60,515 nucleotides of DNA from Gemmatimonadales bacterium (GTDB lineage Bacteria; Gemmatimonadota; Gemmatimonadetes; Gemmatimonadales; GWC2-71-9). This document shows positions 46,622-52,236 of the stretch, in pieces; the first letter of the stretch is position 1, and the number at the start of each line of letters is the position of its first letter. The notes below the pieces were generated by a model. That model worked only from the letters and a program-made list of their open reading frames with translations, made no database searches and was not told the DNA's origin. The stretch covers positions 1-60,515 of the forward strand of contig DASYCE010000022.1 in assembly GCA_036500345.1 (NCBI GenBank), read 5' to 3'. Both the position numbers and the translations under genes were made by a program.

Positions 46622-46646
46622 CTTGTCTCGCGCAGCGCACCAGCCG

Positions 46647-47099
46647 ATGCTCCCTGAGGATGATCCCGGCTGGTCCACCTACGCGGACACCATCGTGCAC
46701 TTCTCCACCACCCCTCCGGTGATGATTGACCTCGCCGTCCCGGTCGGCGCATCCGCACGCGCGCGCCTCGCGGCGGCCGGCTTCGAGGGATCATTCGGCC
46801 TGGTGACGCCGTGCAATCCGCGCGGCCGGCGGGTCGATGAGGCCACCAACGGCAACCTGCTGACGCGGTTCCTCGCCGAACTCGACGCAACCGGCAAACG
46901 GTATGTCCGGGTCGCAGGCTCGTCGGCGGATGGGCAGCACACCGAGCATGGTGTGGCGCTGGCGTGGTCGCAGGCCGATCTGGTGGCGCTTGCTCGCAAG
47001 TGGGAACAATCGGCGATCTACTGGTGGGATGGGGCTGCCTTCTGGGTGATCGGGGCGCTCACGGCGTCGGCGCCATGGCGCCTCGGCCGGGACACATGA
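46647..47099 (+). CDS. DUF3293-like protein
   Basis: A ~150-residue protein resembling DUF3293: FGLVTPCNPRGRRVDEATNGNLLTRFLAELDATGKRYV followed by a region ending in ALARKWEQSAIYWWDGAAFWVI. Its function is unknown. The ATG at 46647 is used; a TTG at 46623, two bases after the icd stop, is an alternative, and neither has a clear ribosome site. Its stop overlaps the start of the HEAT-repeat gene by four bases (ATGA). Confidence 0.72.
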   Translation: MLPEDDPGWSTYADTIVHFSTTPPVMIDLAVPVGASARARLAAAGFEGSFGLVTPCNPRGRRVDEATNGNLLTRFLAELDATGKRYVRVAGSSADGQHTEHGVALAWSQADLVALARKWEQSAIYWWDGAAFWVIGALTASAPWRLGRDT

Positions 47100-49039
47100 C
47101 CGGACGCGCTCGCGCGCCATCGATCGCTCCGCCGCTGGAGCAGGCGCTGCGTGAATTCGCCAACGCGCTCATCAAGTCGGCGATGTATCCTCCCGGTCAC
47201 CGCTTCGTGATCCACAGCGCCGAGGCGTTGATCGATCGGTTGAGCACCCTGCTGCTCGATCGCGAAAGCTTCACCATCGGGGTCACGCCGCGCGGCTTGC
47301 TGGTGGATGGCGCCGCCGTGGAGGGGCTTCCCCCCGCGTTGCGTGAGTTCGCGGTCCGCCTCCATCGCAAGAACGTCGGGACGGTGCAGTTCACGCCGGG
47401 GATCGATGCCGCGGAACTCGCCGCCATGCTCAGCGCGCTCGCGGCCAGTGATGCCGATGAAAAGGTCGGGCGCGAAGGAATTCGGCTGGCGCACATCCGC
47501 GTCGAACCGCTGACCTACGACGTCCTCGCCTTTGCGGATCCGCTGGTTGATTCCGACATCGATGACATCTTCTGGGGACAACTCGTCGAAGCGGCGTTCG
47601 GGCTGCGCATTGCCGAACTGGAATCGCTGCCGACCGCGAGCCAGATCGCGGAGCACATCACTGCGCGGGTCGAAAACGCCGACAGCGCCCGACGAGTGTA
47701 CCAAGCGCTCGCCGCCTTTTCGACGGCGCTTGCTGCGCGGGGCGAACGGGCCGGAGGCAACGCCAAGCGACGCTTCGTCGATGTCCTCGGGGCGCTGTCG
47801 CGACCGACGACCGCGCGATTGGTGGCGGCTGCTCCCACGCCATCGGCGCGCCGTCGCTTTCTTCGCGAGACGCTGTCGCTGGTGCCACCGGCCGTGTTGA
47901 TGCAGGTCCTGGAGTCGGTCGCCGACGCGGATGGCGAGCCGATCTCACCGCAGTTGCGATGGCTTCTGGGCAAGCTCGCCGGCGGCGGCGGAGAGGAATT
48001 GCCCGCCGACGGCTCGGGAGCGTTCGCATCGCAAGTTGTCGGCCTGGTCGAGCAATGGGACGGCGTGCCGCCGCAGCAGGATGAGGGGACCGATCCCCGG
48101 CTCGGGATTGAACCGGCGCGCGTCGTGGCGGCCGGACTCGATCTCGGTGTGGCGAGTCCATCGGTGTTCACAGCCGCGCGCGCGCTCGCCGGTCACGGAC
48201 AGCTCGGTGAAGTGCTGGCGCTCCTTGATCATGCCGAGAACGATCCGGAGATCGTCCGCGTCATCGCCGATGCGGTGCTCGATCCGGGCCTCCTGTCGCG
48301 CCTTCTGCATGAGGAGGTCCTCGACTTCCCGCTGATCGAACGCGTCGTCAAGCAGTCGAGTGCGTCGGCGATCACGCCGCTGGTCGACGCGCTGGCCGCG
48401 GCACCGGAACGGCCGACGCGCCGGCGTCTCCTCGATCTGCTGATCCGGATCGGCCCGCCCGGCGAATCGGCGTTGATGGCGCGACTCGAATCGGCGAACT
48501 GGCAGGTGGTGCGCAACATTCTGGTCGTCCTGAGCCAGTATCCCGCGATCGCCAATCCCGAGCCGATCGTGAAGGAGCTGGAGCACCCCGAGATACGCGT
48601 CCGGCAGGAAGCGTTGAAGGTGCTGGTCCGGCAGCCGGCGACGCAGGCCCGAGCCGTGACCGTCGCACTGGAAGGCGGCGAGGAATCGCTGGTGCGGATC
48701 GCGCTGTCGGCGCTGGCGCCAGTCTGCCCGCCGGCGCACGTGGCGTCGGTCCTCTCACTCCTCGCCCGGACCAATCCGGAACTGCAATTGCAAGCAGTGC
48801 ATGTGCTCAGTACGGTGCGGACGCCGCTTGTGGTACCGCAGTTCCTTGCCCTGGTGCGATCCCGCAGCGGCATGTTCCGCCGGCTCCGGCTCCTCGCGCC
48901 GACACCGGTGATGCTCGCCGCACTGCGCGTCCTCGCGACCCAATGGGCGAGCCACCGACCGGTCGTCGCCGTACTCCAGCTCGCTGCCCGGTCGTCGGAC
49001 CCGACGATCCGCGGTGCTGTCCGGGGCGATAATCGATGA
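47096..49039 (+). CDS. HEAT-repeat protein with N-terminal YPPGH module
   Basis: A 647-residue soluble all-helical-looking protein. Residues ~12-125 form a module (ALREFANALIKSAMYPPGHRFVIHSAEALIDRLSTLL, then a small beta segment GLLVDGAAV) that reappears at the N-terminus of the next protein. The C-terminal 300 residues contain HEAT-like repeats (LLIRIGPPGESALMARLESANWQVVRNILVVLSQY, ELEHPEIRVRQEALKVLVRQ), which act as scaffolds. No catalytic motif is seen. ATGA overlaps join it to the DUF3293 gene upstream and the HD-type gene downstream, so the three are coupled. Confidence 0.82.
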   Translation: MTGRARAPSIAPPLEQALREFANALIKSAMYPPGHRFVIHSAEALIDRLSTLLLDRESFTIGVTPRGLLVDGAAVEGLPPALREFAVRLHRKNVGTVQFTPGIDAAELAAMLSALAASDADEKVGREGIRLAHIRVEPLTYDVLAFADPLVDSDIDDIFWGQLVEAAFGLRIAELESLPTASQIAEHITARVENADSARRVYQALAAFSTALAARGERAGGNAKRRFVDVLGALSRPTTARLVAAAPTPSARRRFLRETLSLVPPAVLMQVLESVADADGEPISPQLRWLLGKLAGGGGEELPADGSGAFASQVVGLVEQWDGVPPQQDEGTDPRLGIEPARVVAAGLDLGVASPSVFTAARALAGHGQLGEVLALLDHAENDPEIVRVIADAVLDPGLLSRLLHEEVLDFPLIERVVKQSSASAITPLVDALAAAPERPTRRRLLDLLIRIGPPGESALMARLESANWQVVRNILVVLSQYPAIANPEPIVKELEHPEIRVRQEALKVLVRQPATQARAVTVALEGGEESLVRIALSALAPVCPPAHVASVLSLLARTNPELQLQAVHVLSTVRTPLVVPQFLALVRSRSGMFRRLRLLAPTPVMLAALRVLATQWASHRPVVAVLQLAARSSDPTIRGAVRGDNR

Positions 49040-50151
49040 GCGATGCCGTCGCGTTCCTGCACGCCTTGTCGCAGGCACTCGCCGCGATGTCGCTGTATTC
49101 GCCGGGGCACCCTGCTACGAAGCGCAGCAGCCATGTGGTCTGGAACGCGCTGGTGGCCCTCTGCGCAGCCGATGCGACACCGACCTTTCTCTTCCTCGGG
49201 CTCGCCCCGATCTACAACGGCCGCCCGCTACACGAACTCCGCGACTGGCCATGGAGCAGGCGGCTTGCCGACGCCGGGGTGCAGCGCCTCGAGTTCGACA
49301 CCGGCGCGACTCCCGAACTCGTCGTGGCGATGCTCGAACGGATCGTTCTCCGGCTCACGACCGGCAAGCCCCGCGCGGATGAAAGCGAGACCCCGCTCAC
49401 CGGCATCCGGTTCGGTCCCGTCGCAGTGGAAGACTCGACGGCCGGCGCGCAGGGAACCATTCCTGGTGGCGGCACTGCGATTCCATTCGAGGATCTCGCC
49501 GATGAACTCGCCGCGATGGAATTCGTGTGGGACGAAGCCGGACGCGGCAATTTCGCCCGGGCCGAAGCCGACGCGATCATCAGGATCCTGGGGAGCATCC
49601 TCGATCGGTATCAGCTTCCACAGGCGCCGTATGAAGCTGCCGGTCCGCGGTACCAGGCGGTGCATGCCGTCAACACGGCATTGCTGGCGATGGTCGCCGG
49701 AAGCTCCTGGCTCGACCGCGGTGGTCGTCAACGGATCGGACTGGCTGCGCTCCTCCACGATATCGGAATGGCGCGCCTGCCGTCGGATCTCGGCGAACGT
49801 GAGACCTTGACGGTCTCGGAACGTGCCCTGGTCGAAACACACCCGGTTGAGGGGGCGAAGCTGCTCCTTGGCGTTGGCGCGCCGGGCCTGGAGCTCGCCG
49901 CCATCGTCGCGTTTGAACATCATCTTCGTCCTGACGGGGCAGGATATCCCGCGCGACGATTTCGCCCGTCAGTCCATTGGGCCAGCCGCCTGATTGGAAC
50001 CTGCGCGACCTTCGCTGCGCTCCGGGCGCCTCGACCGTTCCGGCCGCCCTGGCCGGCCGACCGCGCAACCGAGTTCGTGCGAACCAACACTGGATCGCTG
50101 TTTGATGCCGACGCCGCCCACCTGCTGCTCACCGCGGTCGCGCCTCGGTAA
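49036..50151 (+). CDS. Degenerate HD-GYP-type protein with the same N-terminal module
   Basis: A 371-residue protein. Residues ~4-110 repeat the module of the preceding gene (FLHALSQALAAMSLYSPGHPATKRSSH). The C-terminal ~180 residues follow the HD-GYP fold: VHAVNTALLAM, ALLHDIGMARLP, THPVEGAKLL and EHHLRPDGAGYP. The Lys of HDIGK is Met, and the segment that normally reads VAD-x-(Y/F)-DAL reads TCATFAAL, losing both Asp residues. One of these is a metal ligand in characterised enzymes. Cyclic-di-GMP hydrolysis is therefore doubtful; ligand sensing or altered chemistry is possible. Start by ATGA overlap with the HEAT gene. Confidence 0.8.
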   Translation: MSDAVAFLHALSQALAAMSLYSPGHPATKRSSHVVWNALVALCAADATPTFLFLGLAPIYNGRPLHELRDWPWSRRLADAGVQRLEFDTGATPELVVAMLERIVLRLTTGKPRADESETPLTGIRFGPVAVEDSTAGAQGTIPGGGTAIPFEDLADELAAMEFVWDEAGRGNFARAEADAIIRILGSILDRYQLPQAPYEAAGPRYQAVHAVNTALLAMVAGSSWLDRGGRQRIGLAALLHDIGMARLPSDLGERETLTVSERALVETHPVEGAKLLLGVGAPGLELAAIVAFEHHLRPDGAGYPARRFRPSVHWASRLIGTCATFAALRAPRPFRPPWPADRATEFVRTNTGSLFDADAAHLLLTAVAPR

Positions 50152-51758: not shown

Positions 51759-51833
51759 GGTGCCTGTAGCTCAATTGGTTAGAGCGCCGCACTGTGGCTG
51801 CGGAGGTTGCGGGTTCAATCCCCGTCAGGCACC
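51759..51833 (+). tRNA. tRNA-His (GUG)
   Basis: A full cloverleaf with acceptor GTGCCTG/CAGGCAC, an extra G at -1, discriminator C, anticodon GTG (51794-51796) and the T-loop TTCAATC. G-1 with C73 is the histidine identity pair. CCA is not encoded. Confidence 0.95.
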
Positions 51834-51850
51834 CTTGCCACGCCTCGCGA

Positions 51851-51923
51851 AGGTCCGTAGCTCAATTGGTAGAGCACCGGTCTCCAAAACCGGGGGTTGC
51901 AGGTTCGATTCCTGCCGGGCCTG
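51851..51923 (+). tRNA. tRNA-Trp (CCA)
   Basis: A cloverleaf with acceptor AGGTCCG/CGGGCCT, discriminator G, anticodon stem CCGGT/ACCGG and anticodon CCA (51884-51886). The 3' CCA tail is not encoded. It lies 17 bases after tRNA-His. Confidence 0.95.
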
Positions 51924-51985
51924 TGGTGTTGCGCGATCGGCCCCGCCGATTCGGGGGGACGACTTGTTATATTCGCCCCCGCTGC

Positions 51986-52058
51986 GGCGCTATCGTCTAG
52001 GGGCCCAGGACACAGCCCTCTCAAGGCTGGAACACGGGTTCGAATCCCGTTAGCGCTA
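51986..52058 (+). tRNA. tRNA-Glu (CUC)
   Basis: Acceptor GGCGCTA/TAGCGCT with a G-U first pair, anticodon stem CAGCC/GGCTG and anticodon CTC (52020-52022). CCA is not encoded. A TATATT box at 51968-51973 could start transcription here separately from the first two tRNAs. Confidence 0.95.
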
Positions 52059-52081
52059 TGTGGGATGTTGTGCGGGAAAAG

Positions 52082-52153
52082 GGCCCCATCGTCTATCGGT
52101 TAGGACAAGACCCTTTCAAGGTCTAGAGACGGGTTCGATTCCCGTTGGGGCTA
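52082..52153 (+). tRNA. tRNA-Glu (UUC)
   Basis: Acceptor GGCCCCA/TGGGGCT with a G-U first pair, anticodon stem AGACC/GGTCT and anticodon TTC (52115-52117). CCA is not encoded. It is the second glutamate isoacceptor in the cluster, which together with the CUC tRNA reads both Glu codons. Confidence 0.95.
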
Positions 52154-52163
52154 TGCCAGTTTC

Positions 52164-52236
52164 GCCTCGATAGCTCAATTGGTAGAGCACGTGACTCTTA
52201 ATCACTAGGTTCCAGGTTCGAGTCCTGGTCGGGGCA
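52164..52236 (+). tRNA. tRNA-Lys (CUU)
   Basis: Acceptor GCCTCGA/TCGGGGC, discriminator A, anticodon CTT (52197-52199). The first anticodon-stem pair (27-43) is a C-U mismatch; the other four pairs are intact. CCA is not encoded. It is the last tRNA, directly before the terminator. Confidence 0.94.

Follow-up and report, generated by a model that had tools for sequence, protein, structure and literature searches.

Two adjacent genes in a stretch of DNA from a Gemmatimonadales bacterium (contig DASYCE010000022.1 of GenBank assembly GCA_036500345.1), analysed at its full length of 60,515 nucleotides and referred to here as the window, encode a HEAT-repeat protein and an HD-GYP-like protein that share a homologous module of roughly 110-135 residues at their N-termini. 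Together the two genes make up a two-protein unit of the Gemmatimonadota that is ancient and strictly conserved. Both lie on the forward strand, the HEAT gene at 47096-49039 (647 amino acids) and the HD gene at 49036-50151 (371 amino acids), and the stop of the first and the start of the second overlap in the four bases ATGA at 49036-49039. As delimited by family profiles and AlphaFold2 models, the module occupies residues 11-146 of the HEAT protein (47126-47533) and residues 1-133 of the HD protein (49036-49434). The C-terminal domains of both proteins are already known, and it is the module that is absent from the Pfam and NCBIfam libraries searched. The HEAT protein, which has no long hydrophobic segment, matches Pfam HEAT_2 (PF13646; E 9.7e-7) in two stretches at 29.4 bits against a cut-off of 27.7, the top-scoring one at residues 532-595 (48689-48880). 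The HD protein matches HD_5 (E 1.3e-18) and HD (E 2.7e-6), with the HD_5 domain at residues 215-358 (49678-50109).

The likeness of the two N-termini, which the initial annotation had noticed by eye, was a weak case on the window proteins themselves because BLASTP between them recovers only the YxPGH stretch at a non-significant E of 0.19; profiles of orthologues settle it. HHalign of the two family profiles, built from 25 HEAT and 30 HD orthologues, gives a probability of 96.8 (E 2.1e-10, score 69.5, 97 columns), rising to 97.5 (E 7.4e-12) with alignments made by the tool itself (23 and 28 rows) and standing at 96.6 with larger sets (73 and 70 rows, drawn almost entirely from named loci). Among 100 column shuffles the highest probability was 3.3 and the highest score 22.2, which rules out a chance likeness. 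Six other comparisons stayed at 0.1-0.4: one with the alignment reversed, one of the HEAT N-terminus with the HD C-terminus, and four of the HD N-terminus with segments of the HEAT C-terminal part. The similarity thus lies far above background, and the residue pairing proposed by eye is the one that HHalign returns: Y31/H35 of the HEAT protein with Y21/H25 of the HD protein, GLLVDGAAV with APIYNGRPL and AELAAMLSAL with ELVVAMLERI. A profile of the HEAT module alone, run over its own genome at E up to 10, matched three places: the HEAT gene itself, the window HD gene (E 0.041) and, elsewhere in the genome on a different contig, one further HD gene (E 8.5e-4). Across 200 genomes of the phylum the same profile matched the adjoining HD gene with best E values of 1.4e-10 and 1.8e-10.

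AlphaFold2 models of the two modules, made separately, were returned with a mean predicted local distance difference test score (pLDDT) of 88.2 and a predicted template modelling score (pTM) of 0.83 for the HEAT module (alignment of 73 sequences), and with 88.0 and 0.84 for the HD module (70 sequences). The two models agree in the succession of their elements (H H E E H E H E): helices at 3-20 and 26-43/45, a strand from about 49-50 and a short second strand, a helix at 70-81 or 72-79, a strand at 84-89 or 84-87, a helix at 95-106 or 93-109, and a last strand at 124-128 or 124-127. The predicted fold is helix-helix-hairpin-helix-strand-helix-strand, and the YPxGHP signature lies in the turn that joins helices 1 and 2. 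Only Y21 and H/N25 are near-invariant across all four module families described below; position 25 immediately precedes helix 2, and in the models these two residues would resemble a helix cap rather than a pocket. In the window, position 25 is H35 of the HEAT protein (47198-47200) and H25 of the HD protein (49108-49110). It is histidine in both members of this pair and asparagine in both members of a paralogous pair, so that the residue tracks the pair and not HEAT or HD identity.

Library searches gave the module no name. At E up to 1 Pfam matched neither N-terminus of the window, and no Pfam family was found in more than one of 23, 28 and 26 members searched at E up to 1, 1 and 0.1; for 26 members of the paralogous pair, NCBIfam at E up to 0.1 also gave no consistent match. 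Against NCBIfam the window HEAT protein was unmatched and the HD protein matched HD families only. PDB sequences gave no good match to the HEAT-module profile (best E 0.18). The best Foldseek rows against the PDB were weak and GAF-like (E 0.14 and 0.87, template modelling (TM) score 0.20-0.22), and the best VIA-align rows had Z 6.1 (root-mean-square deviation (rmsd) 5.2, 76 aligned) and Z 6.0 (rmsd 6.0, 73 aligned) to other proteins. As there is no convincing structural relative, the role of the module cannot be read from a known fold; the lack of a PDB match does not in itself establish a new fold. Similar YPxEN N-termini probably also occur in HD proteins of other phyla.

Scanning genome contigs with an alignment of eight HEAT proteins recovered 80 loci, mostly from Gemmatimonadetes metagenome-assembled genomes (MAGs) and almost only from the phylum: 74 locus titles bear a Gemmatimonad name, and the remaining six stand for Longimicrobium, for unnamed bacteria and for two MAGs with the titles Actinobacteria and Acidobacteria. 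The HD gene directly follows the HEAT gene in 74 of these 80 loci, and the remaining six reach the contig end within 900 bases of the HEAT end. All 74 paired loci have the module in the HD protein, so that homologues that keep the pair also keep the module. Among 61 genomes (the window's own and 60 relatives; E up to 0.001) the HEAT protein was matched in 45. Counting main rows, with weaker fragments and generic HD matches left out, 43 of 45 HEAT matches and 43 of 46 HD matches in this set are paired. Three of the five unpaired rows lie at contig ends and two come from one genome, G019, in which the locus is split over two contigs; G019 has a shortened HEAT frame with HD still next. The idea that two HD paralogues with no HEAT neighbour are module-less forms was dropped, since both end at a contig edge. 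The HEAT/HD overlap is exactly four bases in 49 of the 70 loci (of 80) in which it was measured, with start codons chosen by script. Outside the window's genus the neighbouring genes vary and the pair persists. Searches of plasmids, phage records and viral contigs found no homologue of the HEAT protein, and plasmid searches with the HEAT protein of the paralogous pair and with two modules were likewise empty.

This paralogous pair, here pair 2 to the window's pair 1, carries the same module and lies in the same genome on another contig (G000:C26, about 127375-130529; L118:8376-11530, minus strand), between trpB and trpA; trpC and trpF lie upstream of it, and lexA is divergent. At E up to 1e-10 its HEAT protein finds matches in 135 of the 200 genomes searched in the phylum. 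Eight of the 12 regions examined have pair 2 between trpB and trpA, and no trpA or trpB was found in the other four; each of the 12 has lexA close by. Of 30 short loci, part of them from genomes already counted here, 21 have trpB upstream of the pair and the remaining nine have lexA beside it. In relatives that lack the trp genes, pair 2 remains beside lexA. Its signature is YLPNNP/YPxEN, with asparagine instead of histidine. When the HEAT1, HD1, HEAT2 and HD2 module sets were compared by HHalign, each of the six comparisons had a probability between 82 and 97; with 30 shuffles each, the best control was 5 or less in five comparisons and 33 in one. A tree of 79 modules resolves these four sets as clades with 99-100% support each, their joining order being unsettled where long branches meet. 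A third, more distant HEAT/HD pair with the module was seen in two genomes that belong to a single genus (L121:7241-10961 and L131:8210-11918), where it adjoins amidohydrolase-like genes.

The module also occurs in tandem ahead of HEAT repeats within single chains (L102 and L109). One of these, L109:2762-6850 on the minus strand, is an unbroken frame running to the contig edge and combining GGDEF, an AAA ATPase, two modules and HEAT repeats; by its domain content it links the module to synthesis of cyclic di-GMP (c-di-GMP). In L102 tandem modules seemed to be fused to alanine dehydrogenase; as this apparent fusion crosses a run of N, it was dropped. Copies of whole pairs were also seen: one locus (L111, G057:C146) has a HEAT-HD-HEAT-HD tandem, and another (L106, G146:C10) has two copies of the pair a few kilobases apart.

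The HD domain aligns to the HD-GYP phosphodiesterase PmGH over residues 210-363 (phmmer E 4.5e-16; profile E 3e-39), and PmGH numbering is used here for catalytic positions. Among the 94 pair-1 HD rows from outside the window's genus, a set that includes duplicate genomes and leaves out the HD proteins of two paired loci under 300 bits, D183, D305 and D308 are kept in all 94 and K225 in 92. To judge from these alignments, the HD domain of most lineages keeps the residues for metal-dependent hydrolysis. The window's genus has lost several of them: in its eight pair-1 rows K225 is methionine (8/8), D305 is alanine or serine (8/8), D308 is alanine, valine, isoleucine or threonine (8/8), and D183 is replaced in at least seven. 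The pair-2 HD proteins of the same genus have D183, K225, D305 and D308 intact in all five rows. Retained in all eight pair-1 rows are the HD motif of the superfamily (H241-D242 in the numbering of the window protein) and, in PmGH numbering, H189, H221, D222, H250, H276, G284, Y285, P286 and R314, with H277 kept in seven.

The window protein itself keeps six of the eight PmGH metal ligands (E185, H189, H221, D222, H250, H276, H277 and D305), the exceptions being E185, which is tyrosine, and D305, which is alanine; in the second shell D183 is proline, K225 is methionine and D308 is alanine. Two short stretches hold much of this change: HDIGM at residues 241-245 (49756-49770), with methionine in place of the lysine of HDIGK (K225), and A-T-F-A at residues 324-327 (50005-50016), which is D-V-Y-D in most relatives (D305 and D308). 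The HHExxDGxGYP motif reads HHLRPDGAGYP, retaining HH, D and GYP and losing E, which is I, L, V or M in other pair-1 rows, and because of this missing glutamate we call the domain HD-GYP-like. Tyrosine also stands at the E185 position in 93 of the 94 rows outside the genus, which fits the Y/F subfamily of HD-GYP proteins set out in the PmGH study (PMC4159591). The same study reports that D183A, K225A and D308A lower PmGH activity as changes of metal ligands do, and that D305A strongly reduces activity and leaves some (PMC4159591). Since these four positions are replaced in the genus, and given these alanine effects in PmGH, the window HD protein probably works poorly or not at all as an enzyme and is unlikely to be a normal phosphodiesterase; perhaps it is a receptor. 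The initial annotation had seen the HD part as sensor or enzyme: the metal-ligand and second-shell positions are intact in most lineages, but in the window's genus, where several are lost, a sensor or receptor is likelier than an enzyme.

Set against known systems, the HD protein resembles the HD-GYP phosphodiesterases typified by PmGH (PDB 4mcw, 4mdz and 4me4; PF13487, HD_5) in keeping both the HD and the GYP motif and the majority of the metal histidines, and differs, as well as in the residues lost and in reading HHL rather than HHE, in having the new module where PmGH carries a GAF domain, and in adjoining a HEAT gene wherever this can be judged. The window HD protein also matches PDB chains 9rbz and 9rc0, titled 'HD domain/sensory box protein' (E 2.2e-9 and 6.9e-9), which we take to be DvhD. 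In DvhD of Desulfovibrio vulgaris a non-hydrolysing HD-GYP domain that has lost catalytic residues acts as a c-di-GMP switch, binding without hydrolysing (PMC13090378), and it may serve as a model for the window HD protein. DvhD itself sits in the membrane, carries dCache and PAS domains and has lost the very HD motif and double histidine, whereas the window protein keeps HD and HH, lacks a long hydrophobic segment and has a HEAT partner. The HEAT protein is like HEAT-repeat scaffold proteins (PF13646) in its C-terminal part, which lies above the HEAT_2 cut-off, and unlike them in an N-terminal module outside any HEAT family found and in its HD neighbour. Pair 2 in the trp operon is the closest counterpart, with the same two-gene order, homologous modules, and HEAT and HD domains; it differs in its asparagine signature, in HD catalytic residues that are intact in the rows examined, and in its steady place beside lexA and, in regions that have them, the trp genes.

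We prefer to think of the HEAT and HD proteins as a two-protein signalling unit, a tentative reading, at a little less than even confidence. The two proteins would be produced jointly and work in a single soluble complex or a common pathway, their homologous modules pairing with one another or binding a common ligand or partner. The HD-GYP-like domain would read a cyclic dinucleotide or similar phosphodiester, and the HEAT solenoid would present a surface to a client and carry the output. In the window's genus, where up to four hydrolysis residues are lost while the histidine/aspartate core, GYP and R314 are kept, the HD protein would most likely have no catalysis of its own and serve as a nucleotide-binding or structural subunit in control of its HEAT partner. 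The homologous modules, the pairing seen in every judgeable locus, the paralogous pairs and the catalytic residues lost in the genus are established, and the matching predicted folds, the four-base overlap, the DvhD precedent and the GGDEF chain of L109 also speak for the unit. Contact, ligand and output are what we infer for it, and several results weigh against the proposal. Mutual information between HEAT and HD proteins is not enriched in module-module pairs: these account for 6 among the top 100 and for 55 among the top 1000, where 7.7% would be expected. The test is coarse and of low power (72 of 83 pairs after removal of near-copies; effective number of sequences, Neff, 46), and it lends no weight to the initial annotation's proposal that the module may mediate assembly. 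PDB sequence and fold searches offer no convincing solved structure like the module. The loss of catalysis is qualified by the activity remaining in PmGH D305A (PMC4159591), and a purely structural role would not need the metal-site histidines and aspartate that the genus retains. Finally, with four separate and old module clades, the two proteins could owe the module to inheritance and not interact today.

This last point leads to an account in which the module is the trace of an old tandem duplication, each copy serving its own protein, for example in homodimerisation, with co-transcription alone holding the genes together. The deep, well-supported clades and the missing covariation would suit it, but outside the genus the surroundings change freely and the pair is unbroken in every judgeable locus, and the paralogous pair has the same two-gene order; we consider this account unlikely. 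Rather less doubtful, although still on the unlikely side, is a module that acts as a sensory ligand-binding input before two outputs, in the manner of PAS or GAF domains, both proteins receiving the same signal with no contact needed. Such a role is in keeping with a module that precedes both HEAT and HD and stands in tandem in longer HEAT proteins, one of which also has GGDEF and AAA, and with the covariation result; the GAF-like Foldseek rows point the same way, but at TM scores of about 0.2. A common signal alone does not, however, demand unbroken adjacency and a four-base overlap, and the near-invariant Y21 and H/N25, at the turn before predicted helix 2, look more like a helix cap than a pocket. 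As for the HD protein of the window's genus, it is improbable that it is still an enzyme with an altered metal site or substrate. The HD motif, H189, H250, H276, GYP and R314 are kept throughout the genus and D305A leaves PmGH some activity, but K225, D308 and D183 are replaced in eight, eight and at least seven of eight rows, and alanine changes there were as harmful to PmGH as changes of metal ligands (PMC4159591). The two-protein signalling unit remains our preferred reading.

Around the pair, gene order within the genus is isocitrate dehydrogenase-like, (DUF3293), HEAT, HD, EamA and aminotransferase IV. The DUF3293 gene (46623-47099, forward strand) overlaps the HEAT start by ATGA, and both overlaps described initially, this one and that between HEAT and HD, are real. 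DUF3293 is sporadic, preceding HEAT in one of six other same-genus regions that have the upstream isocitrate dehydrogenase-like gene, and was dropped as a member of the unit. With the PADLOC defence models only a HEAT stretch was matched (HEAT-ARM_XIII, E 5e-7 over 89 residues), the HD and DUF3293 proteins being unmatched. Five clustered tRNA genes (His, Trp, Glu, Glu, Lys) lie at 51760-52236, shortly past the aminotransferase gene.

In a literature search without most subscription journals, nothing was found on a HEAT/HD-GYP gene pair or on HD-GYP proteins in Gemmatimonadota, and little on nucleotide signalling in this phylum, whose members are common in soils and waters; the papers listed for HEAT repeats together with HD-GYP were two on Xanthomonas genomes and one on jumbo phages. 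It is conceivable, if doubtful, that the nameless YPxGHP/YPxEN module defines a signalling class of the Gemmatimonadota in which HEAT and HD-GYP-like proteins would assemble via twin modules, comprising at least three paralogous operon types and a GGDEF-linked single chain, with a dead-enzyme nucleotide receptor in the window's genus. A domain that marks both partners of an operon offers a handle on a conserved signalling unit of undescribed function. Within a single genus the active site has passed from seemingly intact to broken while the genomes concerned keep an intact paralogue, which makes the evolution of an enzyme into a receptor directly testable.

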